Shown here one piece after another: positions 45 through 50,965 of a stretch of 64,000 nt of DNA (within the stretch, counting starts at the first letter, position 1; every line of letters begins with the position of its first letter). The notes under the pieces were generated by a model that was not told the DNA's origin, ran no database searches, and worked only from the letters and a program-made list of their open reading frames with translations. Where the stretch lies: contig NC_087079.1 in the NCBI RefSeq assembly GCF_026151205.1, forward strand, positions 11,460,635 to 11,524,634. Reading direction: 5' to 3'. Source of the stretch: Bolinopsis microptera. Its lineage: Eukaryota; Ctenophora; Tentaculata; Lobata; Bolinopsidae. A program made the position numbers and the translations under genes.

Positions 45-3000
45 ATGATTACTAAAAACAACGGAAGTCTTCATATCTGTCAAATAAATGTCAGTGGGCT
101 ATCAAACAGGTCTATTACAGCAATTGATAGATTCAACTTTAAGTTCAAAAATGACATTGTGGCTCTACAAGAAACTCTACTGGATAACTCCAGACCCCAC
201 TTAAATACCTTTCATAATCTGGATACATTTTCGGTAAACAATAGCAGAGGAGTGTCCACCAGTGTTTCCCCCAGGCTTGTCCCACAACAAATCAGTGAAC
301 TTCAAGATACAACCACTGATGCACTCTGGGTCACTGTTAGGTACAATTCAACGGTAGTAATGATTGGTAATGTATATGTAAACCACTCCCTAACTTCTAC
401 AAACAACCTGAGCTCAGCACTTACCAACATCACAAAAGCTCTCCAATACTGCTCCAAGTTCAAAATCAAAGATGTAATAATAATTGGTGACTTCAACAGT
501 AGGCACATCTCCTGGGGAGATATCATCACAACCGACCGTGGAAGACAGCTGGATTCATTCATCGCTCAGCATAATCTGACATGCATCACTCCGAACACCA
601 ATACATTCGTCTCCCATAATGGTGGGAGTATCATTGACCTTGCTTTGTTGAAGGGTAAAGTATGTAGGCTATACCAATCGTCCAGCATTGACAGTGAAAG
701 TGAACTCTTCACAGGTGCTCCAAATAGAGGTCCCTTACCAATCATCCACCAATTCTGTCATGCACAAACTGCTCAATCTGCATCTCCTCTTCTCTACTGG
801 GACATTGATAAAACAGACTGGAATGCTTGGTGTGGATCACTTAACAGGGCCCTTCTCCTTGGCATAACTGGCAGGATCAACTCTTACATAGACCCTCTAA
901 AGCTGTGGCAAGACTTTAAAAACATTTTATCTGCGATTGGTAATGAATGGATTCCTCTCAAGAAAGTCAGTACCCACTCAAAACCTTTCTGGAACTCTCT
1001 CCTTACAGACCTTTCACGAACTCTTCAAGCTGCGCAGGAAACCATGAAAACCAGCTACACACCGTATAACATCTCCCTCCACAAACAAGCAAAGGAGGAG
1101 TTTTCTAATACCTTGATATCCGAAAAAAACAAATGGATTCATCAGCAACTGGAAAATCTCAATGTTGCTCAGTCTCAAATATTCTGGAAAAATTATAAGA
1201 AGACATTGACCAATAAGCCTAACGAGTACATGGGAAATCTTATGGATGGTGGTATCCTCCACTCTGACAGAACTCAGAAAGAAAACATCTTGTACAAATC
1301 ATTCTTCTCGGGTGAACACATGAATGGATGCAGCTTTGATCATGTCTTCGAACAAGAAATCAATAGCTGCTATGACAACATTATATCAACTCAGTTCCCT
1401 ACCGACCATTTAGATCCAATCATTAATGATCATCTGAATGGGAAAATAGGTCTAGAGGAAGTTACTTTAGCACTGAACGCTCAAAATAGCAATGCCAAAA
1501 GTTTTGACACTGATAATCTTCACCCAAAAATCCTGAAACATCTGCCTGTGTCAGCTCTTCAGATTCTAACAAAACTATATGACCTTGTCCTTGAGACTGG
1601 TGTATGGGTCTGGGAGGTATCCAATGTCACTTTCATCAAAAAGGATGGGAAGGATAACTACATGAACCCCTCTGCTTATAGACCAATATCGATATCATCA
1701 TATGTTGGAAAGCTGCTAGAAAAGATCTTGGAACGAAGAATAAAGCTCCATTGCGAACTAGAGGGCTTACTCGACGAAGAGCAAGAAGGCTTTAGACCTC
1801 AAAGAAATACTGCAAGGTATCTTTATAAATTAGTAGCTACTCTAGATGAATGCAAGAGGAAAAAACTCACTACTTTCCTACTATGCATCGATTTTAGCAA
1901 AGCATTTGATAGTGTATGGGTGAAAGGCCTGATTTTCAAGCTCAGCAAATACCAAATACAAGGGAACATTTTGCGGATAATAAATAACTTCCTGTTATCC
2001 CGCAAAGTACGGCTGAGGGTTAACAACAGTCTCGGATTTCAACGCTCATGTGGATGGTTTGGGCTTCCCCAAGGCTCTGTCCTTGCACCCCTGCTATTTA
2101 TCCTCTACATCTCGGATATGTTATGCAAGGACCAGCTCCCACTGGAATGCAGCTCTAACTCAAGCCTCTTCAAATATGCTGATGATGGAAGCATAGCAGT
2201 CTCTCACATAGATCCTATATGTGCTCATCGAATTATGCAGTTGATGTGCAAGTACCTTCATGTCTGGTGCAGTAAGTGGAAACTTATCCCAAACTGCGAC
2301 AAAAACAAGACCGAGTGTATTATGATCACACCAACATCCTCATCTGCACCTGATGTCACAGCCTTTGGACCACTCATTATCGGCAGTAGACCCATAACAT
2401 ATACATGTCAATCAACTGTTCTTGGACTGAGGATAGACGACAAACTTACGTTCAAGAGTCACGCAAAATTTAAATTGAAACAATGCTGGTTTGCCTGGTA
2501 CAGGATCACTCAAAACTCCACCCGCCACAGAGGCCTGAATGCAAGCTCACTCAAAATGCTCTTCAAAACAGTAGTACTCACAAAACTTCTATATGCTGCT
2601 CCAATATGGCTAAAAGATAACCTAGACACTTTCAAAGACTTCTATGCCAGGGTCCTCTTGAAAATAAGTGGATCCACTCACCATCCTCCCAAAGATTTGA
2701 CATCTGTCGCGCTTGGAATTCCACCCCTTGAGATATCCTACAAGATGATCACTATAAAATTCATAATAAAAGCACTTACAAGTGACCCATTTATGCAAGG
2801 ACTCATCTTACAGCTAGAGGAGGCAAAGGCCCATCGATATCAGCACCATATTGATGAGATACGTAAGTTCCTAACGTGGACAAGGGGGTCCAACGAGCTC
2901 AACAGAAGCAGAATAGACCTTCTGACTAGTGTCCACAACGGTGTTGTCAGCTATTCAAAAGACGAAATAACCCGCTTTATGGACTTCACTTGGAATAAAC

Positions 3001-3383
3001 ATCTCCTACTGAACCCTAGAATAAATCCGGGTGAGATACTAGATAACATCGATGAGAGGAGCAAAAAGTTGTTTCCTCGCTACTCAAGCAGGAGCACAGA
3101 CACTAAAGTAATGTCTCTCTTGCATGGCCATGACATCACCTTCACAGCATTCAAGGCAAGGGTTGCCAACAACTGCGACCCTCAGTGTCCGAATTGTCAG
3201 ATGTTGGACAACAATTACCATCGAATCTTCTCTTGTCCACTGTACCGCTGTTCCTACAGAGAAACCATTCAAGAGCACTCCACTAGTGACCAACCATGCT
3301 GGTCTATCTTAAGAGATGGTAGTGATGGCAGCATCACTGCCTTCCGATCTTTAGCACAGATCGCCATCGATGAACTATCATAG
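45..3383 (+). CDS. LINE ORF2: AP-type endonuclease plus reverse transcriptase
   Basis: The 1112-residue ORF encodes the replication enzyme of a Jockey/CR1/I-like LINE. Residues about 10-220 form an exonuclease/endonuclease/phosphatase domain with LQET near residue 40 and GDFNSRH near residue 148; it would nick target DNA. Residues about 480-800 are the reverse transcriptase palm and fingers, with DFSKAFDSV, GLPQGSVLAP and the catalytic YADD. A Cys-His knuckle (CPNC followed by H and C) lies near residues 1045-1062. No RNase H domain was recognised. ATG 45 follows ACCACC, a good initiation context, and lies close to the window edge. There is no stop or frameshift across the full length, so this copy is young or still selected. 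Clade assignment is uncertain. Confidence 0.93.
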   Translation: MITKNNGSLHICQINVSGLSNRSITAIDRFNFKFKNDIVALQETLLDNSRPHLNTFHNLDTFSVNNSRGVSTSVSPRLVPQQISELQDTTTDALWVTVRYNSTVVMIGNVYVNHSLTSTNNLSSALTNITKALQYCSKFKIKDVIIIGDFNSRHISWGDIITTDRGRQLDSFIAQHNLTCITPNTNTFVSHNGGSIIDLALLKGKVCRLYQSSSIDSESELFTGAPNRGPLPIIHQFCHAQTAQSASPLLYWDIDKTDWNAWCGSLNRALLLGITGRINSYIDPLKLWQDFKNILSAIGNEWIPLKKVSTHSKPFWNSLLTDLSRTLQAAQETMKTSYTPYNISLHKQAKEEFSNTLISEKNKWIHQQLENLNVAQSQIFWKNYKKTLTNKPNEYMGNLMDGGILHSDRTQKENILYKSFFSGEHMNGCSFDHVFEQEINSCYDNIISTQFPTDHLDPIINDHLNGKIGLEEVTLALNAQNSNAKSFDTDNLHPKILKHLPVSALQILTKLYDLVLETGVWVWEVSNVTFIKKDGKDNYMNPSAYRPISISSYVGKLLEKILERRIKLHCELEGLLDEEQEGFRPQRNTARYLYKLVATLDECKRKKLTTFLLCIDFSKAFDSVWVKGLIFKLSKYQIQGNILRIINNFLLSRKVRLRVNNSLGFQRSCGWFGLPQGSVLAPLLFILYISDMLCKDQLPLECSSNSSLFKYADDGSIAVSHIDPICAHRIMQLMCKYLHVWCSKWKLIPNCDKNKTECIMITPTSSSAPDVTAFGPLIIGSRPITYTCQSTVLGLRIDDKLTFKSHAKFKLKQCWFAWYRITQNSTRHRGLNASSLKMLFKTVVLTKLLYAAPIWLKDNLDTFKDFYARVLLKISGSTHHPPKDLTSVALGIPPLEISYKMITIKFIIKALTSDPFMQGLILQLEEAKAHRYQHHIDEIRKFLTWTRGSNELNRSRIDLLTSVHNGVVSYSKDEITRFMDFTWNKHLLLNPRINPGEILDNIDERSKKLFPRYSSRSTDTKVMSLLHGHDITFTAFKARVANNCDPQCPNCQMLDNNYHRIFSCPLYRCSYRETIQEHSTSDQPCWSILRDGSDGSITAFRSLAQIAIDELS

Positions 3384-29018: not shown

Positions 29019-29426
29019 GTAGGTCATTGATTTTTAGCTAACATTTGGGTTCGTTGGGGACGGACTCGAGGACGCACTTTTATACTTGGATCACATTCTA
29101 TTACGTGAGACTTTTTCTGGTCTTTTCGGACATAATGAACTTTTCAAAAATGTGGTAAAGGTTTTAATTGTTAAAGATTAGCTCATATTAACTTCCCCAG
29201 ATTTGTGCAGTTTGATTGCATTGTTCTTGGAAATGAAATTGTATAAAAAGTTTCGTGCATAACACTCCATATTTGGCCAAATTGGAATAATTTCGTCTAA
29301 AATCCCTCTGGAAAGCTAGTTTCCTTATTTTGTTTTGGAACGCGCAGAACGTTAGAAATATCCAAAAGTTGGTAACAGTGCTTATGCTCACAGTGGAAAA
29401 TATCTGGATTTTATTCTTGCATAAAA

Positions 29427-29597
29427 GCGATAATGCAATTATCGCGTGTTTATCGCCCAATATGCGATTATCGCGTGTTTATCGCCTAACATGCGATTAT
29501 TGCGCACGATTATCGCCTAACATTGGCGATTATCGCTAAATGCACGATAATCGCCATTAAATAGTGATAATCGCTAAAATCTGCGATGATAATGCAA
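29427..29597. repeat. Left subterminal GCGATWATCGC array
   Basis: About nine full or partial copies of the palindrome GCGATTATCGC/GCGATAATCGC, spaced 10-25 bp apart with short GTGTTTATCGCC-type links. The copies mirror the right-hand array, as expected for transposase or accessory-protein binding sites near transposon ends. Confidence 0.85.
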
Positions 29598-30549
29598 TAG
29601 TGAAATGATGAGTTAATTTTGACATACTGTGAGTCATATACTGCATCAACATTCAACACTGCACTGAATCAAAATTATGGTTGAACAGCAATAAAAAATA
29701 TTATATTTGATATATATATTAAACCTTGTGCCTGACGCCGCGCGCAGCGGATCCTGCATTTTCATTTTGAGTTTGACCCTGGCCTCACAATTACATTTTA
29801 CAATCAAACTATAACCTTCAAAGGCGAAAGTAAACACAAGCATCAACATTTCATATTTCCAATTTCATTCCTCTTCCCCCTGTTTAACGGACGCAAACGC
29901 TATTTACGAATGACCCCTGGGCCCCTACGACAAACCCGAAACCATAAACATAAACTTCTATTCAATTTGTAATTCGAAAATTATCTCATAATTCCGTTAT
30001 GGAAATAAATCGTATACATGAATAAGAATCTGAATCAATACATATTGTTCATTCTGTCTGCCGATGGCAATTATATCAATATTATATTCAAATAGTACAC
30101 GGAGTTCATTACTGCATTTCAAGTTTGACACGCGCGGTGAGCCGCGCACTTTTGTTGGATTTGAACTATACGAAAATCAAATTATGAATCGAGCGCTACT
30201 AGGGCGCTCACTTAGCGCTTAGTTACCAGCCAACTTTACTTGTTATGATTTGTACCTCTTAGTGTGACCTGGATCAGAATATTTTCTTCGACTTCAGTTT
30301 TCAAAAGTGAGAGTGCTTGGATCGAATATAGATATATCTCTGTAAGAGTGTATAAGATGTTACAACTTACACACGTGCGGTAATCGGTATCATGTCACCA
30401 AGTGACTTGTCTATTGTCGTTACCAATGGCCACACTATTCACCTAATACCGTAATCTGCTTGACAGCTCGATCGAATTAAATGATTGCATTTGTTGTTAT
30501 AAAGAACGAAATTAAGCACGTTCATATCGATTATCACATTAGTGAGAAC
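29598..30549. promoter_or_regulatory. 5' non-coding region of the transposon, probable promoter
   Basis: About 950 bp lie between the left array and the first ATG. No ORF is supported. GCGCGC-containing patches occur at about 29738 and 30132. It must hold the promoter of the element's genes, but no specific element can be named. Confidence 0.35.
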
Positions 30550-32288
30550 ATGAGTGGAAGCAGGACAGAAATGTTCGCAGGGTTAACTGTAACACGACAG
30601 TTAAGACCACTTGGTTCCGATGGCTTCCGCAGGAGATGTTGGTTGTAAGTTATTATACATCGAACTTGTTTGTTTCCTCTTACCTACATTTTTGCTGACT
30701 CGACCTGCAATCTGCACGAGTTGTAAGTGAAATTATATAAATCTTCTAATTGTAGGTATATTAAAGTATATTAAAATGTAGGATTTTTTCCGATTTTGAC
30801 CCGGGGATATACTTTAATATACTTTAATATGGTTGGCCCCCCCCCCCCCCCCCAAATTTTACTCTTCAGGCACATGAGAGCCAGGTTCCCTACTCTCGAA
30901 GCGGTTCCCGAAATAAAACGAGCTGTGGCACGTTTCTGCCATATCGAGGGTAAATAAGTTTTTATCACTTGCCATTGCCTCACTTCTTATTAGGAACTAG
31001 AGAAGTTCTCGCAAAACATCATGGCTTAACAAATGACAACTCTGATCGATATATCTTTTGTAAAAATCGTTCTTTAATCATTAAGGAGATGAATACATTT
31101 CAGAAAGTGGCGTACACTCTGATTGGGTGAGGGAGGTCCAGCTACGATATAAGAAATATGCTGTTGACAAGAAATGCAAGAGGAAGGGGGCAGCAGTGAA
31201 GCAGAGAGCAGCATCGGATCATCCCCCAGTTACTGCTGCTGGTACCCAGACAGATCCACTGCACGCATTGCACTGCAAGGTAAGCTGCACCTGTATCACA
31301 TATGAACAATCAAATTTCATCTGTCATGATATGAGATCCACTGAATCCCTGTTGAAACAAAGCTGTTAAAATAGTGATATTCAGGATTGTGTGACCAATG
31401 CCATGCGGCATGTCCTGGACGAAAAGGCGGCGGAAATTGCGGAGATGAGGACCAATCTCCTCCTCCACCAAGCACCCTCTCCGACCCCAGCACCCGTCAG
31501 GTAGCATAGCAGAATAAATATGACCCGGTGTCCAATGTTTTTGAAATGGTTGAAAATCGTCATTTAGTATGCAGTTTAATTCCATTGTAATGTTATTGCC
31601 AGGGTTATGTAATATGTTTGTACCCAGGCTAACAATATTTAGTCAAATTTAAAACTGATATATAACACATCTAAATATTGCAGCAGTATCCTGATCAGAA
31701 CCCCTGACCCCATCCGCTCTCGCTCGCGAACTCCCTCCGTCAGTTCAAATGGGCCAGGGTAAATTTTTAAGCCATAAAAGTAAATGAGTTAATGTATGTG
31801 GTGTTTTGGTAAGTCAACTAGTTATTTTATTGATAAGAAAGGACTCTTATGAAGATTGGCGATGCGTTATATCATTTGTGATGAAATCTTAACACCATAT
31901 TTATTTCAGACCGTCCCGTTCCAGTCACGGTACACCAGTCTGTGCTGTGCAACCACGATCACGGATTAATTCAGCAGCATCCAGGTATTAGGCAGTGAAC
32001 CCCCCTCCTGGCTCTCCCTCCCTGGCCCTCCCTCCCTGGCTCTCCCTCCCTGGCTCTCCCTCCCTGGCCCTCCCTCCCTGGCTCTCCCTCCCTGGCCCTC
32101 CCTCCCTGGCCCTCCCTCCCTGTCCCTGCCTCACTCATTCTAATTTCAGTATCAGTGCGGACAACTGGGGGCCCGAATCTGTCATAGAAGCCAGAGTCCG
32201 CATGGCTGCTGAGAGGAAAAAAAAGGCCTCTCAAAAGAAGCTCACTGCGACTGAGATTTTCCGACAGCGTTGGGGAGGTTCAGTTTAA
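30550..32288 (+). CDS. Transposon gene 1: basic 251-residue accessory protein
   Basis: Seven exons (30550-30644, 30870-30949, 31104-31279, 31385-31500, 31684-31758, 31910-31984, 32150-32288) give a complete ORF of 251 codons plus TAA. Every junction is phase-consistent and every intron has GT/AG. Residues about 15-85 are strongly basic, with FRRRCW and KKCKRKG, and look like a DNA-binding region. Residues about 150-200 are Arg/Ser/Pro-rich (RTPDPIRSRSRTP), and the C-terminus is Lys-rich and helical. The family was not recognised. Its place upstream of a transposase-like gene, between arrays of palindromic sites, suggests the role of TnpA in En/Spm, a subterminal-repeat-binding accessory protein. 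That role is inference. Intron 4 ends in CAGCAG, and intron 6 contains a CCCTCCCTGGCT minisatellite. Confidence 0.75.
32000..32130. repeat. CCCTCCCTGGCT minisatellite in intron 6 of transposon gene 1
   Basis: About ten copies of a 12-bp unit (CTCCCTCCCTGG with CT/CC variants) end about 20 bp before the acceptor of the last exon. They lengthen its polypyrimidine tract. Confidence 0.9.
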
Positions 32289-32457
32289 CTATAAAACTTG
32301 TAAATACACTGAATTTATTATTAATTTTTGAAAAATTATGTGATGTTTGTTCCGTGATACTAACTTTTTTTTGTGACACTAATTCATTAACTCTATTTGT
32401 GATACTAATTTATTAACTAATTTTATGATACCAATTTTGTGACACTAATTTTGATAG

Positions 32458-35400
32458 ACTGTGGGATACTGAAGGGAAAAGAAGCAGTTCTAACGAGCTC
32501 TTCTCAAACACAAGGATATATCTTGTGAACTTGGCTGGTATATATGAAACATTTGACACGGAGTTGTAGAGTGAGCTATGTGCCTCGCCAGGGCTAAAGT
32601 AGTGAATGACCTTGCTGTACGGCAAGTTAAACAAGGATCCTCATCACCACTATCATTAAGCCGCACAAGGAAATAAAAACTCCTGCTGACAGTGTTAAAA
32701 GGAAGCACACTCATGTCTTCAAGGATATAGTAGAGAGCCAGGTATCCTGAATAACGTTATCGGTAATAAGTTAAACTGTATATCACTTCCGCAGTTTGCC
32801 ATCATAGCCATACTGAAACTGAACGAATCCCTACAGGCAATTTAGTTCAATCAACATGAATATTTGCAGGCTGAGTCAAGCTGTTCAAAATCTAATGACT
32901 CTGATATCGAATCAGTGACCAAACGGATCCGAACTGCGGAGTTAACATCACTCTCTAAAGAGCAGCGGGAGTATGTACAGGCGTTGGCTGGCGTTGACTG
33001 TAAGAAACGAATTGATGCTCTTCATGTTGCTATGTTCAAAGCTGAATGTAAGTTGTTAAGAACGATACAAATTGTCATTATCATTACAACTTAGCGGGTG
33101 GAAAAGTTAATTCTTAGTGTGCAATAGATTTCATCGCAATAAATTAAATGCTGACTCAATTTTTAGCTAACACGGGGACAGCCAATGTACGAAACAACCT
33201 GCGGCCACTGCTAAAAAAATATGATATAAAAATGGAATCAGAGAAGGAAATCAAGTCAATGGAAGAATTATACACCGTGAGTGCTCAGTTGAACTCAAAA
33301 CCAATTATATATCATTTTGGTGTCATGGCGTACTAGCATATAGCATAGCACAACCCAGATTTTGAAATATAGAATATATTGTACATCAAAAATTAACATC
33401 ATTCATGTTTTAAGGTGAACTATATGAGTGCAATGGTTTCTCTTTCCCATAAAGCTGCAGCACATGATAAAAATGAAACTAAAAGTGGTGAGCTGTTAGC
33501 AAGACGTACCCCAGTAGCCTACTGTGATGGACAGGAACTGCTAACCAAAACACTTATAACCTTGAAGAATACCGGTATTTCAAATTTCTAGAGATTATAG
33601 AGCTGTTTACAAAAAATTAATTTGATTTAAATAGGTCAAGGTGGGCAGTTCTTTTAGCGGTTTTTATCACATAGTTCATTAACAGCCAGCTGAATTCTAT
33701 ATATTCCAGGCCAGTTAGATGTGGGAACTGACAAAACTATACATGTTAAGCTGTTTGTAGACGCAGACACGAGCTCCACTAAAGTGGCAGTCAATGTGCT
33801 AAACCAGCCTTCGTGTAACAGCTCGTATGCCCACCCAATGCTGGTGTACACCGAAGCTCCGGACCATCGCAGGAACATGGAGGTCATATTTAAGGTATTT
33901 CTTCATGAAATCTAGACTTCAACTTGAGCTTATTTGTATTAACAGTTTACACTTTAAAAACTGGACAGGCATGAGACAGATAACATTACAGGTGGTTAAC
34001 CGGGACCTACCACAGCTCAAGAACTTTGTCTTCTGTGGAGCACATGTGAAGATGATTCTCTGTGCAGACACAAAGGCACTGTGGGCTATGCTGGGTATGG
34101 GCAGCAATGGGACGTTCCCCTGTCCACTGTGCGAGGTACATAAAGACCTGATGCAAGTACCCAGAAGCCAGAGAGCTCTCTGCAAGCCCCGAACTTTTGC
34201 GGGAATTATGCAGAACTTTGATGCTAATATGAGGTACTTATAAACTTATAATACCAGTCATTAACTCGCTGATTGCAGCTCCTTCATTTCACAAAGTACA
34301 AACATTTATCTCGATGTATATTGTATACCATGTATGTATTTCGATAGATGTATACCATTTCTGTAAACTGTTAGTATCGAGTTTTTCCACATCAGAATGA
34401 CTCAGTGTAACCCGAGATCCCAAGCCCAGTTTATGAATGTTGCTTCACGACCCATCACAGACTGTTTCGGGGAGGATTCTGATTATCTCATAAACTGGGT
34501 CGCTGTTCCGTTCTTGCACATAGTAAGTGATCGAAGCTCACAGTTTTTTATTCGAACACCGCTCATGCTGTTCCTGATATGTGGCAAATAGAACTAGGTA
34601 CTAGAATTATTTGACTGATTGTCATGACTCTTGATACTTCCTTTAGAACATCAAAGTCGGGACTTTTCTGTGGACAGAGTACGGTAAACTGTGCGAGGAG
34701 ATAGACTTTGTACTCGCTTGCAATGTGGCAGACGGGTTTCTTCCCAACAGCTACAGCAGTACGACAGACTTTGGAGCCATGATTCTGCGCATCGAACAAG
34801 GTAATGTAGATTCATCGATGAATGTATCACTTCATTATTGAAAAATTGGAGGCTTTGCAAACTGATATATAATGAGTTGAAGAAAATAAGTGTGGCACTG
34901 TACATTTTAGGTAACCGTGTGGCCTCGAAGTGCAACAGTGGGCCCCTTTCCTCGAAGTATGAGCAATATTTGAGGGGCATCAATGTCACTCCTGAGGCAT
35001 ACCATGGTGTGTCCCTGACCGGCGTGAGAGCAGGATATTTGGTTAAAGCCAATCACACTCAATTTTGGACAGACCACTTCTATAAAAACGAGTAAGTTCT
35101 GTGAGATCAGTGCGATTTAACTCATGTTACTAATGGTTGTCGTTTATAGTGAAATAACTACCACTTTTTACTTGTGATTGAAGGCTAAAATTCTGTATTG
35201 ATAACGAGCTTCTGTGACTGACCGATTCTGTGTTGACAGGAAGATAAGACCACAGGACAAGTTGCACTTTCAGCAACGGCTCCTTGCACTGGATCGCATT
35301 AAGTCCTCGTATAGAGATCTCTTAGTTCTCGGTGGCAAAAGTGGGAAAGTGAAGAGTCCCCGTGAGATCGAAACTCTTGTCAAGGCCAGGGACCTCTTCT

Positions 35401-35992
35401 TGGCAGAGTACCGAAAGTTTGGTCAGTCCACATCGGTGAAGGTATTGTTGTTATCTCTTATAGCTTTACCTGTTGTCTCCAACCCCTAAATAGCCTGGAA
35501 GAAAGTTATTTTCATGACATATTTATAAGAAACTCCGGCCCAACCGAACTCTTAAAATTGCAACATCATTTCAACACCACCTCCACCAGATACATCTCCT
35601 TGAAGACCACTTTTTGGAGCAGATACAGCTCTGGGGGATGTTTTCTGGATCTTTCAATGAGCAAGGTGGTGAGAGTACTCACTCCCTTTTTAAGAATCAC
35701 GAACACATGACAAGTAAGAAATAACTTGGGCTTTTAGAATTAATTGAGTTTGAGATCAAATTTTGATTTCCACACGTTGAATAGTAGTGTGTAAGGGGTC
35801 GTTCATATATTACTTAACCATCGAAGGTGAGGGGGAGTACATAATATGTGGACGACCACCACTTTAATACAGAAATGTAAGCAACATAAATTTTCAGACC
35901 ATGTTCGTAATGACGAAGACCGAGTTGTGAAAAAGTGCGAGCTAGCAACACGGAAATACCTGTTGAAAGTGAAATCCAAGCTGTGTGACTGA
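32458..35992 (+). CDS. Transposon gene 2: DDE-type transposase-like protein
   Basis: Exons: 32458-32524, 32592-32741, 32870-33047, 33167-33276, 33415-33574, 33710-33894, 33929-34233, 34396-34522, 34647-34800, 34911-35091, 35240-35441, 35590-35713 and 35898-35992 (stop TGA). From 32870 to the end, 11 exons join in frame over 606 residues. The product resembles RNase H-fold transposases: FVDADTSST is a possible first Asp, ADTKALWAMLGMG followed by CPLC is a second Asp with the usual Cys pair, and LLEDH followed by EQGGESTHS fits the Glu region. I infer it is the transposase of this element. The exon at 32592 has an in-frame TAA (32674) that one extra base just before it would remove. This also corrects the phase into the next exon, so the copy seems to carry a 1-nt deletion there. 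No ATG is found in frame at the 5' end. The acceptor at 33928 is weak. Confidence 0.7.
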
Positions 35993-37236
35993 AATGGGTC
36001 AATCATGATGGATTTAGTGTTTGGGACAATCTGCTATATGCCTAAAATTGAAAGATTGTTAATTTGGTGATGCTTCACCCTCTGTTCATATTTTCTACTT
36101 GATCAATAATGATATTCGCCACATATTATGTAAAACGCCGCTTATGTTTTGCCATTAAAATTTTTTCGTTATAGTAGTGACTGCGACTGAAACCGCGCAT
36201 CACGCAAGTTTTTGTCGCCGCGCGAGGGTGATTCAATTTTGTCCACTTCGCCATAATTCTCAGAGGATGTAATTTGACGAGTGCGGGACAATTTTGAGCG
36301 CAAGGAATCACTTGAATCGAAGATAACGATTGAGCTGACAATTTCTCCGGTAAAAATTAGACCTTAGATAACTGAATTGGGATGACATCGGAAATAACTC
36401 TGATGCGAGCAGGAATACACTATGTCATACTCATAGCAGTAATACTTAGACGTGAATATTAATATCCGATGGATCAAATTAGTGTATATGTTATCATTAT
36501 TATATATATAAAGTGTGCCTCACTGGGGCACCCTTAAGTAACAGTTCCAGCTCGATAGGCCTCGTAACCGGGATGGATAGAGACAAACGAAATACATCAT
36601 CTCGTCACAAGCAATCAGATCTAAGTTAAACGATAAGGCCAGGACATACTATGAGCATTGAATTAACTGTCAAAATGGTAACCTGAGCCCTAGAGGTGAT
36701 CACATGCTATAAGCCTAACGGAAAAGTATTCTAAAAATATAAATCTAATCGTTAAGTTAAACACATTTGAAAGCGGCTGTCAGATAATATAAACGGTTCG
36801 GGATGATGGCTGTCGAGGTTCGGGCATGACGCGCCCGGCCGCACAATAAGCGGTGACTAGGGAAGTCACAACAAAAAGTCCCCTCTCAGTCTAATCTGAG
36901 CTCTCGATATTTTGGAAGAATTCTGGATTCTAGCTAGAAATAGGTAAATTAGTCAACGAACATGAGATGAATCATATATTAACTTAAAGATGAAAACCCG
37001 CTAATCAACGTTGACCAAAATTAAATTATGTGGGCTTACAATTGAATCATATAGAGTAACTATTTGATCATTTGACGTAGCCATTTTGTCAACGCAGCAT
37101 TTTGTCAATTTGTCAACTCTAAATATTCGACTGCTGTTAATCTTTTAACTTTAATTATAAACTTATGTTACCACTGAAAATCTGAAATGGCTCCAGTAGA
37201 TCTGTAGATGTGGCAGCTAGGTTCTCGTTATATACT
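35993..37236. other. 3' non-coding part of the transposon
   Basis: About 1.24 kb with no supported ORF. TATATATATAAAG at about 36500 and GC-rich patches at about 36200-36230 and 36830-36850 stand out. It lies between the transposase stop and the right-hand array. Confidence 0.45.
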
Positions 37237-37416
37237 GCGATAATCGCAAATTGAGGCGACAATCGCACGATAATCGCATAATGAGGCGATTATCGCACAA
37301 GGGGGGGGCGATAATCGCAAAATGAGGCGATAACCGCGCGATAATCGCAAAATGAGGCGATAATCGCACAAGGAGTCGATTATCGCGCGATAATCGCGAG
37401 GGAGTGCGATTATCGC
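37237..37416. repeat. Right subterminal GCGATWATCGC array
   Basis: About twelve copies of the palindrome, regularly spaced with AAATGAGGC or ACAAGG links, end about 45 bp before the right terminus. Unit spacing is tighter and more regular than on the left. A G8 run sits inside (about 37302-37309). Confidence 0.87.
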
Positions 37417-37463
37417 TGCAAAAATAAAATCTGCGAAATGGCCAACATTTTCCACTGTGTGCT

Positions 37464-46115: not shown

Positions 46116-46269
46116 AAATTGCTAAATAAAATGTTCAATTTTTGCTGTTATAGGGGGGATCATGTTTTTTGTCCGTTCGGTACCCTATATTTTCAAAACG
46201 GACAAAAAAAAGAGCGGACAAAAATGGACAAAAATGGACAAAAACGGACAAAAATGGAAATAACATTTA

Positions 46270-47605
46270 GATGCTTCCTCCTCCTACTCTTCCTCCTCCT
46301 CCCCCTGGGTCTTCCTGATCTTCCTCAGTCCTCTTCCTCCTCCTCTCCTCAGTCCTCTTCCTACTCCTCCTCCTCGTCCTCAGTCCTCCTCATCAGTCCT
46401 CAACAGTCCTCCTCCTCCCCAGTCCTCCTCCTCCTCCTGAGTCCTCCTCCTGGGTCCTCCTCCTGGGTCCTCCTCCTCCTCTCCATCCTCCTCCTCTTCC
46501 TCCTCAGTCCTCCTCCTCATCCTTCTCATCAGTCCTCCATCCTCCTCCTCAGTCCTCCCTCAGTCCCCCTCCTCCTCCTCCTATTCAGTCCTCCTCCTCC
46601 TCCTCCTCCTCAGTCCTCCTCCTTCTCAAATCTCAGTCCTCCTCAGTCCTCCTCCTCCTCCTCCTGAGTCCTCCTCCTCCTCCTCCTCTTCCCTCTCAGA
46701 CATCCTCCTCAGCCATCCTCCTCGGTCCTCAGTCCTCCTCCTCCTGGGTCCTCCTCCTCATCCTTCTCATCAGTCCTCCTCCTCCCCAGTCCTCTCCCAG
46801 TCCCCCTCCTTCTCCTCCTCCTATTCAGTCCTCCTCCTCCTCCTCCTCCTCCTCAGTTCTCCCCAATCCTCCTTCTCATTTCTCCTAAGTCCTCCTCCTG
46901 AGTCCTCCTCCTCCTCTTCCTCCTCTTCCTCCTGAGTCCTCCTCCTCCTCCCTCTCAGTCATCCTCCTCAGTCATCCTCCTCAGCCATCCTCCCCAGCCA
47001 TCCTCCTCAGCCATCCTCCTCAGTACTCCTCAGTCCTCCTCCTTCTCAGTCATCGTCAGTCCTCCTCCTCAGTCCTCCTCAGTCCTCCTCTTCCTCCTGG
47101 GTCCCCCTGGGTCTTCCTGATCCTCCCCAGTCCTCTTCCTCCTCCCCTCCTCAGTCCTCCTCCGATCCTACTCCTCCTCCTCGTCCTCAGTCCTCCTCAT
47201 CAGTCCTCAACAGTTCTCCTCCTCCCCAGTCCTCCTCCTCCTCCTGGGGCCTTTTCCTGGGTCCTCCTCCTGGGTCCTCCTCCTCCTGGGTCCTCCTCCT
47301 CCTGGGTCCTCCTCCTCCTGGGTCCTCCTTCTCCTCTTCCTCCTCCTCCTCCCTCTCAGTCATCCTCCTCAGCCATCCTCCTCAACCATCCTCCTGAGTC
47401 CTCCTCCTCCTCAGTCATCCTCGTCAGTTCTCCTCCTCCTCCTCCTAGGTCCTCCTTCTGGGTCCTCCTCCTACTCCTCCTCCTGGGTCTTCCTGATCCT
47501 TCTCCTCCCTCTCAGTCATCCTCCTCAGTCATCCTCCTCAGTCATCCTCCTCAGCCATCCTCCTCAGCCATCCTCCTCAGTACTCTTCAGTACTCTTCAG
47601 TCCTC
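46270..47605. repeat. TCC-rich array (CTCCTCAGTCCTC), copy 1
   Basis: 1.3 kb of pyrimidine-rich DNA built from TCC, CAGTCCTCC and CTGGGTCCTCC units. The + strand open frame from 46119 is Ser/Leu/Pro low complexity from this array and not a gene. Confidence 0.95.
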
Positions 47606-48495: not shown

Positions 48496-49629
48496 GTTAG
48501 TAAGCACGACGAGGTAAACCATGGCTGGACGCAACACGAGACTAGAGCCTCACGGGTTTACAAAATGATCAATTTGAGAGAGTGTGGATTTGTTACCGCT
48601 CCAGTCATCACAGCTACAACTAGTGGACGGCTACTAGTACTACAACTAGCTGTCCTCCCGTCTCGATAAATGTGCTTGGAAACGTCGGTTTCGGAGTGTA
48701 TATAGAGGGTACTAGGGTGGGGGATGTTAATAGCAGTAGGTGTGACGTTTATTGGTCTGCTAACGGGTTCAATTGTTAAAGTCGTGGAAGATCCACCAAT
48801 CAAGATCTGTTCAGTATCATTAATAGAATAATGTCTATTTTGGGTTTACTTTGTCTTAAAGTTTTTTGTTTTGTTTTAAAACTATGAAATTTTTTATCAT
48901 TGACAACAACTAAAAAACATTATAACTAAAAAGATAACATTTTAATTCAGCCAAATGACAACCAAAATTGAAATTCTTTTGAGACATCATTCCTTCTTCG
49001 TTTCTCTCTTATCGTGAAATATTTTCAAACTGATAAAAATCACTTATATTGTAGGAATCGGGCTTAACACTTCACAGCAACAAGTTTATGAGTCATTTTA
49101 CAATAACCAAATACCAGTGATTCTGGTTACTATAACGGTAGATAATGGCCCATTCTCTACTCCTAGGATAACGTTTGTTGATTAAGGTTTGCTACAGATG
49201 GCATGCCACTGTTGAGGTAAATGGAGCAACCTCGGACTAACGAGACATCGCCTAATAAAAAATTACGCATATTTACTGTAAAATGGGGGGGGGGGGGGGG
49301 GGTGTCACGTCCGTCTATGTCCGCTTGTCCGCTTGTCCCATAGAATCCAAAAAGGACAGGACATAGGCGGACATAGGCGGACATAGGCGGACATAGACGG
49401 ACATAGGCGGACATAGGCGGACATAGACGGACATAGACGGACATAGGCGGACATAGGCGGACATTAATGGACACCTAAATTGCTAAATAAAATGTTCAAT
49501 TTTTGCTGTTATAGGGGGGATCATGTTTTTTGTCCGTTCGGTACCCTATATTTTCAAAACGGACAAAAAAAAGAGCGGACAAAAATGGACAAAAATGGAC
49601 AAAAACGGACAAAAATGGAAATAACATTT

Positions 49630-50965
49630 AGATGCTTCCTCCTCCTACTCTTCCTCCTCCTCCCCCTGGGTCTTCCTGATCTTCCTCAGTCCTCTTCCTC
49701 CTCCTCTCCTCAGTCCTCTTCCTACTCCTCCTCCTCGTCCTCAGTCCTCCTCATCAGTCCTCAACAGTCCTCCTCCTCCCCAGTCCTCCTCCTCCTCCTG
49801 AGTCCTCCTCCTGGGTCCTCCTCCTGGGTCCTCCTCCTCCTCTCCATCCTCCTCCTCTTCCTCCTCAGTCCTCCTCCTCATCCTTCTCATCAGTCCTCCA
49901 TCCTCCTCCTCAGTCCTCCCTCAGTCCCCCTCCTCCTCCTCCTATTCAGTCCTCCTCCTCCTCCTCCTCCTCAGTCCTCCTCCTTCTCAAATCTCAGTCC
50001 TCCTCAGTCCTCCTCCTCCTCCTCCTGAGTCCTCCTCCTCCTCCTCCTCTTCCCTCTCAGACATCCTCCTCAGCCATCCTCCTCGGTCCTCAGGTCCTCC
50101 TCCTCCTGGGTCCTCCTCCTCATCCTTCTCATCAGTCCTCCTCCTCCCCAGTCCTCTCTCCCAGTCCCCCTCCTTCTCCTCCTCCTATTCAGTCCTCCTC
50201 CTCCTCCTCCCTCCTCAGTTCTCCCAATCCTCCTTCTCATTTCTCCATAAGTCCTCCTCCTGAGTCCTCCTCCTCCTCTTCGCCCTCTTCCTCCTGAGTC
50301 CTCCTCCTCCTCCCCTCAGTCATCCTCCTCAGTCATCCTCCTCAGCCATCCTCCCCAGCCATCCTCCTCAGCCATCCTCCTCAGTACTCCTCAGTCCTCC
50401 TCCTTCTCAGTCATCGTCAGTCCTCCTCCTCAGTCCTCCTCAGTCCTCCTCTTCCTCCTGGGTCCCCCTGGGTCTTCCTGATCCTCCCCAGTCCTCTTCC
50501 TCCTCCCCTCCTCAGTCCTCCTCCGATCCTACTCCTCCCCTCGTCCTCAGTCCTCCTCATCAGTCCTCAACAGTTCTCCTCCTCCCCAGTCCTCCTCCTC
50601 CTCCTGGGGCCTTTTCCTGGGTCCTCCTCCTGGGTCCTCCTCCTCCTGGGTCCTCCTCCTCCGGGTCCTCCTCCTCCTGGGTCCTCCTTCTCCTCTTCCT
50701 CCTCCTCCTCCCTCTCAGTCATCCTCCTCAGCCATCCTCCTCAACCATCCTCCTGAGTCCTCCTCCTCCTCAGTCATCCTCGTCAGTTCTCCTCCTCCTC
50801 CTCCTAGGTCCTCCTTCTGGGTCCTCCTCCTACTCTCCTCCTGGGTCTTCCTGATCCTTCTCCTCCCTCTCAGTCATCCTCCTCAGTCATCCTCCTCAGT
50901 CATCCTCCTCAGCCATCCTCCTCAGCCATCCTCCTCAGTACTCTTCAGTACTCTTCAGTCCTCAA
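49630..50965. repeat. TCC-rich array, copy 2
   Basis: As copy 1, with several 1-10-bp indels, the main difference between the duplicates. Confidence 0.95.

Follow-up and report, generated by a model that had tools for sequence, protein, structure and literature searches.

A 64-kb window of the Bolinopsis microptera genome (64,000 nucleotides; "the window" denotes this whole stretch) contains one copy of a mobile element that is probably a cut-and-paste transposon and belongs, within the CACTA-Mirage-Chapaev-Transib group, to the Chapaev branch. Its gene 2 would encode a DDE transposase and its gene 1 an accessory protein, and its two ends are unequal. Chapaev is the best label and a supported one, drawn from the 4-bp target-site duplication (TSD) and from a match to the Pfam family DUF1280 that lies below the cut-off; it is a placement by such signatures rather than by a tree. 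What is new here is a terminal heptamer equal to the consensus of the recombination signal sequence (RSS), combined with a second block that is 11 bp away on the left and 21 bp away on the right.

The window copy sits on the contig labelled C8, and the searches covered the 265-Mb genome assembly of the species. The family of this element is referred to as family A, while families B and C are two relatives in the same genome. For the left end (first 212 bp), whole-genome searches returned 12 hits of about 100% identity together with one of 80%; for the right end (last 235 bp) they returned 12 full matches. At least one family A end is found at 14 genomic places, and at 10 of these both ends are intact enough for the TSD to be assessed. 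The four places left out are those on C9 and C4, where the left end stands alone, and those on C7 (16.8 Mb) and C3, where the left end is altered or lost. A 4-bp TSD is present in nine of the ten both-ended copies and is different each time (tgct in the window, agtt, caga, atac, cttt, tata, gaca, gtct and tacg); no target motif common to these duplications was discerned by eye. The termini CAC...GTG occur at 19 of the 20 ends, the exception being the altered left end of the C10 copy (TSD tacg). Two copies on C6 are inserted 7 bp apart, with overlapping TSDs (caga, atac). Aligned stretches of up to 4.8 kb differ from the window copy by 0-4 mismatches (indels uncounted, and excluding the C7 16.8-Mb copy over its left half, which is at 89%). 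Family A thus moved recently and is, on this near-identity, recently active.

The features of the window copy are collected in the table below. The matching ends, the TGCT duplications and the coordinates 29389..37459 given by the initial annotation all proved exact on re-checking. That annotation had also described mirrored subterminal arrays, which are confirmed by the enrichment of the palindrome GCGATWATCGC at both ends. Allowing up to one mismatch, all 18 sites of the window fall inside the two end arrays of the element; with up to two mismatches the count rises to 28, made up of 20 sites in the arrays, 2 in the rest of the element and 6 in the remainder of the window. The left 220 bp contain 9 sites at this looser setting (shuffle mean 0.32, maximum 3; 500 shuffles) and the right 240 bp contain 11 (mean 0.37, maximum 3). 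A chance origin of the arrays was rejected on these shuffle counts. The same annotation had proposed searching the genome for other copies and for empty sites, and had named a lack of further copies sharing both ends as grounds for abandoning the element. Ten copies share both ends; for empty sites, a search of this assembly with the two flanks of the window copy joined together matched those two flanks alone and so revealed none.

Table. Features of the family A copy in the window (positions counted from the first letter of the window)
Feature	Position	Strand	Remarks
TSD TGCT, left	29385..29388	.	exact
13-bp terminal inverted repeat CACAGTGGAAAAT, left	29389..29401	+	first 7 bp = RSS heptamer
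Second conserved end block GATTTTATTCTTGCA, left	29407..29421	+	11 bp past heptamer
Left subterminal array, GCGATWATCGC-like palindromes	29435..29574	.	
Gene 1 (predicted)	30550..32288	+	7 exons: 30550-30644, 30870-30949, 31104-31279, 31385-31500, 31684-31758, 31910-31984, 32150-32288
Breakpoint of 623-bp deletion	32637..32638	.	from comparison with copy C6b
Gene 2 remnant (predicted)	32638..35992	+	last 104 of the 172 bases of exon 2 (32638-32741), then exons 3-13
Gene 2 exons 3-8	32870-33047, 33167-33276, 33415-33574, 33710-33894, 33992-34233, 34396-34522		
Gene 2 exons 9-13	34647-34800, 34911-35091, 35240-35441, 35590-35713, 35898-35992		
Right subterminal array, GCGATWATCGC-like palindromes	37237..37416	.	
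Second conserved end block GATTTTATTTTTGCA, right	37417..37431	-	21 bp past heptamer
13-bp terminal inverted repeat, right	37447..37459	-	perfect inverted match to left CACAGTGGAAAAT
TSD TGCT, right	37460..37463	.	exact

The window copy is an internal deletion derivative. Two full-length copies on C6, here called C6b and C6c, measure 8,694 and 8,695 bp. Relative to C6b, the window copy is missing 623 bp. The loss takes in exon 1 of gene 2, which carries the start codon and the zinc finger, together with 68 of the 172 bases of exon 2. The full length of the element is consequently 8,694-8,695 bp and not 8,071 bp: the 8-kb element of the initial annotation is real, and the length given for it has to be replaced. 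When 12 copies were compared with C6b exon by exon (the C4 fragment being left out), C6c was the one copy to match it in every one of the 20 exons of the two genes. The other 11 copies, the window copy included, miss exons, and most of them also differ slightly in the exons that remain. Copies that retain both ends while lacking inner parts are as expected for derivatives moved in trans.

The exons of both genes are predicted from GT-AG signals, open frames and conservation rather than from transcripts. Gene 1 has seven exons, all of them identical between the window copy and C6b, and the 251-residue basic protein reported earlier was recovered as its product (predicted isoelectric point 10.5). 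Gene 2 of C6b lies on the same strand and has 13 exons with GT-AG introns, encoding 695 residues. The earlier 13-exon transposase-like gene thus exists in the full-length copy, whereas in the window copy its first exon is gone. The two spliced genes were likewise found, but they do not fill the interior: no exon was recognised in roughly 1 kb ahead of gene 1 or in the 1.2 kb that follow gene 2. That the window copy is a deletion derivative, that the heptamer matches the RSS exactly and that the two ends differ by 10 bp had been overlooked.

The residues of gene 2 speak for a DDE transposase of this group. D347, C365, C368, L442-H443, H625, H630 and E651 are invariant in all three families, and the first catalytic aspartate (D277 or D279, chosen by eye) is present in both families that cover the region. 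The counterparts in RAG1, with positions counted on PDB chain 9jpu_A, are D708, C727/C730, L794-H795, H937/H942 and E962, residues with catalytic and zinc-binding roles. The spacing is similar in the two proteins, with 18 residues from D to C in gene 2 versus 19 in RAG1, H(4)H in both, and 21 versus 20 residues from the last H to E. In an hhalign comparison with RAG1, the H, H and E of gene 2 fall on H937, H942 and E962 (E 0.0042), with a score of 30.5 versus a maximum of 26.3 in 60 shuffles and 18.4 for the reversed sequence. PMC12730594 lists the residue set D/D/C(2)C/LH/H(4)H/E for EnSpm, Mirage, Chapaev, Transib and RAG1, and PMC4079192 does so for Chapaev. DUF1280 (PF06918) is matched by two of the three family proteins, and PMC3985635 equates it with Chapaev transposases, grouped with RAG1. 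A genome-wide DUF1280 search gave no match at family A and one elsewhere. This match, at C3:20135699-20135878, lies above the Pfam cut-off and outside the family A places. A three-family profile run against viral and prokaryotic contigs gave 130 and 40 pattern matches, respectively, with no relative confirmed among them.

Families B and C share the plan of family A. Over the parts read, the gene 2 protein is 76% identical to that of family A in family C and 67% in family B. In both families, relatives of gene 1 adjoin relatives of gene 2, so the two-gene plan predates the split of the families. Family B ends read CACGGTG, and both family B copies with both flanks read have a 4-bp TSD: cggc/cggc for C6:9096492-9103124 and aata/aata for a short derivative on C7. 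The C6 copy is internally deleted, its recognisable gene 1 exons directly adjoining exon 7 of gene 2. Family C right ends read CACAGTG, and paired 13-bp ends occur at several places.

The ends themselves are built from two blocks. Beyond the 13-bp repeat the left and right ends diverge, and then a common block follows, from position 19 on the left and from position 29 on the right. The two blocks are identical at 14 of 15 positions; when the right end was shuffled 300 times, no such match arose in the stretch tested. In family B the block again starts at 19 on the left and 29 on the right, and in family C it starts at 29 on the right. The heptamer of the family A ends, CACAGTG, is that of the RSS, in which it is combined with 12/23 spacing; ProtoRAG has 27/31 (PMC8289069). 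The 11/21 ends, whose spacings differ by one helical turn, resemble 12/23 signals in this layout. It is possible, but doubtful, that they represent a lineage outside Transib/RAG with RSS-like ends, in which an exact heptamer and a second binding block at distances differing by one helical turn would allow only unlike ends to pair.

The chances are about even that the 11/21 spacing has no function and goes back to a single gain of some 10 bp at the right end in a common ancestor, inherited by all families. In all three families the right spacer contains the letters CCATTTCGCA, as expected from one old insertion, and every copy derives from a left-right parent. Conservation at the ends speaks against this reading. 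On the left, families A and B agree at 27 of the terminal 33 positions; on the right, the families agree at 37-38 of the terminal 43. In the stretch beyond, by comparison, the figure at the best shift is 27-28 of 60 positions for three of four comparisons (36 of 60 for B versus C). On either side this has the look of selection that reaches as far as the end of the block.

Several observations weigh against the Chapaev-branch transposon with unequal ends as proposed here. The DUF1280 match of the family A gene 2 protein (E 8.2e-5, 22.8 bits) falls below the curated cut-off of 25, and in the RAG1 comparison hhalign gives a probability of 8%. Searches of the PDB with gene 2, first as a single sequence and then as a three-family profile, returned chance matches only and no transposase. 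For gene 1, Pfam gave no known domain up to E 5, nor any in searches with pieces of the protein, and the PDB gave chance matches only. One of the ten both-ended family A copies, on C11, is flanked by aacc/agaa and has no TSD. At the ends, the left end of family C is absent among the matches of the left-end pattern with up to three mismatches, so that the left spacing is seen in two families, not three. Finally, since all copies come from one left-right parent, the unlike ends of the copies are no evidence for a pairing rule. The assignment to the CACTA/Mirage/Chapaev group made earlier nevertheless stands, on near-identical copies with different 4-bp TSDs, on CAC ends and on the D/D/C(2)C/LH/H(4)H/E residues. 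The narrower description "Chapaev-like" holds for the termini, the TSD length and the residues, while the DUF1280 match stops just short of the cut-off.

A less likely explanation is an EnSpm/CACTA-type element with unusual ends, in which gene 2 would belong to the EnSpm branch, gene 1 would be a true counterpart of TNPA, and the 4-bp TSD would be derived. The N-terminal finger of gene 2 resembles Transpos_assoc, a domain characteristic of CACTA proteins in plants; the match has E 0.0011 when the entire protein is used and 3.4e-4 with its first 110 residues, below the cut-off in both cases. The two genes, 13-bp ends and subterminal arrays are as in En/Spm (PMC2613891). However, Transposase_21 (PF02992) has no match up to E 10 in any of the three family proteins, the TSD is 4 bp and not 3 bp, and DUF1280 outscores Transpos_assoc. 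More improbable still is that the element forms a lineage of its own within the group, distinct from both Chapaev and EnSpm, and has retained the RSS-like end plan of a common ancestor with Transib/RAG. The exact heptamer in unequal two-block ends, the RAG1-like residue spacing and the sub-threshold level of all family matches would fit such a lineage; the TSD of 4 bp instead of 5 bp, the T-rich second block, which is unlike the RSS nonamer, and the identity of the best family match, DUF1280, do not. Membership in Transib/RAG proper was rejected on the 4-bp rather than 5-bp TSD.

In the mechanism proposed for the Chapaev-branch transposon, the gene 2 enzyme would cleave beside the CAC/GTG ends and insert the element with a 4-bp stagger. 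The basic gene 1 protein would most likely bind the palindromic arrays and help to join the ends, like TNPA of maize En/Spm, whose transposition requires TNPA together with TNPD (PMC2613891). In the weakest step, the difference of one helical turn would most likely let the complex combine a left end with a right one. Because the start of its transposase gene is lost, the window copy would be mobile only if the enzyme came from another copy.

Further observations concern individual copies and the surroundings of the element. The C11 copy that has no TSD (C11:5192222-5201200, L009) carries a 106-bp deletion that spans the intron and fuses exons 6 and 7 in frame, at the cost of three residues. 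The C7 copy at 16.8 Mb (C7:16813185-16822100, L019) is a mosaic with an altered left end: its left 3.2-3.4 kb is about 89% identical to family A and the remainder 99.9%, which points to exchange with a diverged relative by recombination or gene conversion. Three CACGGTGGAAAAT sites in one direction, exactly 2,611 bp apart (C10:16364861, 16367472 and 16370083), look like a tandem array with a family B-like end. Two family B right ends (L025 and L031, at C5:18646893 and C5:23570597) have an identical 14-bp outer flank, although the inner sequence of L031 differs; this would be either a duplicated insertion site or a composite. A BEN domain guessed by eye in gene 1 was not borne out by Pfam. Elsewhere in the window, a 1,112-residue open frame (45-3383) resembles, by eye, a non-long-terminal-repeat retrotransposon endonuclease/reverse transcriptase. 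Two 182-residue open frames with identical translation (46119-46667 and 49480-50028), 3,361 bp apart, are probably a recent duplication.

The element has features in common with several known systems. Chapaev elements are recognised by a 3- to 4-bp TSD, with 4 bp for Chapaev proper. The element shares with them the CAC...GTG ends, the 4-bp TSD, the D/D/E residues with C(2)C, LH and H(4)H, and the sub-threshold DUF1280 match; it differs in its second gene, its long palindromic subterminal arrays and its CACTA-type N-terminal zinc finger. Chapaev proteins are described with a Chapa zinc domain and, in some cases, a RING finger (PMC4411706). The Chapaev3 elements (Merrow, Garfield, Conan) have the group residues and CAC ends in common with it, but a 3-bp TWA TSD and, in Garfield, a length of 2.3 kb (PMC4079192), as opposed to the varied 4-bp TSD and 8.7 kb found here. 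A two-gene Chapaev element or 11/21 ends were not found in a search of open-licence papers, Repbase lying outside that search.

With Transib, ProtoRAG and the RAG1-RSS system the element shares the heptamer CACAGTG, two-block ends with unequal spacing, and the catalytic and zinc residues. Those systems differ in their 5-bp TSD, in a spacing of 12/23 (RSS, some Transib) or 27/31 (ProtoRAG) as opposed to 11/21, and in the second block, which in the RSS is an A-rich nonamer and here reads GATTTTATTYTTGCA. No RAG2-like kelch/PHD partner, a feature of RAGL elements only, was found here in the Pfam search of gene 1 up to E 5. A 2021 review (PMC8355894) names some Transib elements as the sole case of 12/23-type asymmetry known apart from V(D)J recombination. 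If the pairing proposed for the 11/21 ends is true, a 12/23-type rule would have arisen repeatedly in this group of transposases or be ancestral to it, and would not be peculiar to Transib and V(D)J recombination. A recently active, near-uniform family outside Transib, with the RSS heptamer at its ends and 11/21 spacing, would allow a direct test of whether unequal spacing forces the pairing of unlike ends, and of whether the rule predates RAG.

Plant En/Spm (8.3 kb, compared with 8.7 kb here) likewise has two proteins, subterminal repeats and internal-deletion derivatives (PMC2613891), as well as the Transpos_assoc-like N terminus. It differs in its CACTA ends, its 3-bp TSD and the production of its two proteins by alternative splicing, and gene 1 of the present element matches no known family. 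The ends of the element may pair like RSSs, and its plan is En/Spm-like, with two genes and subterminal arrays; for the En/Spm system with its two proteins it offers a counterpart in animals.

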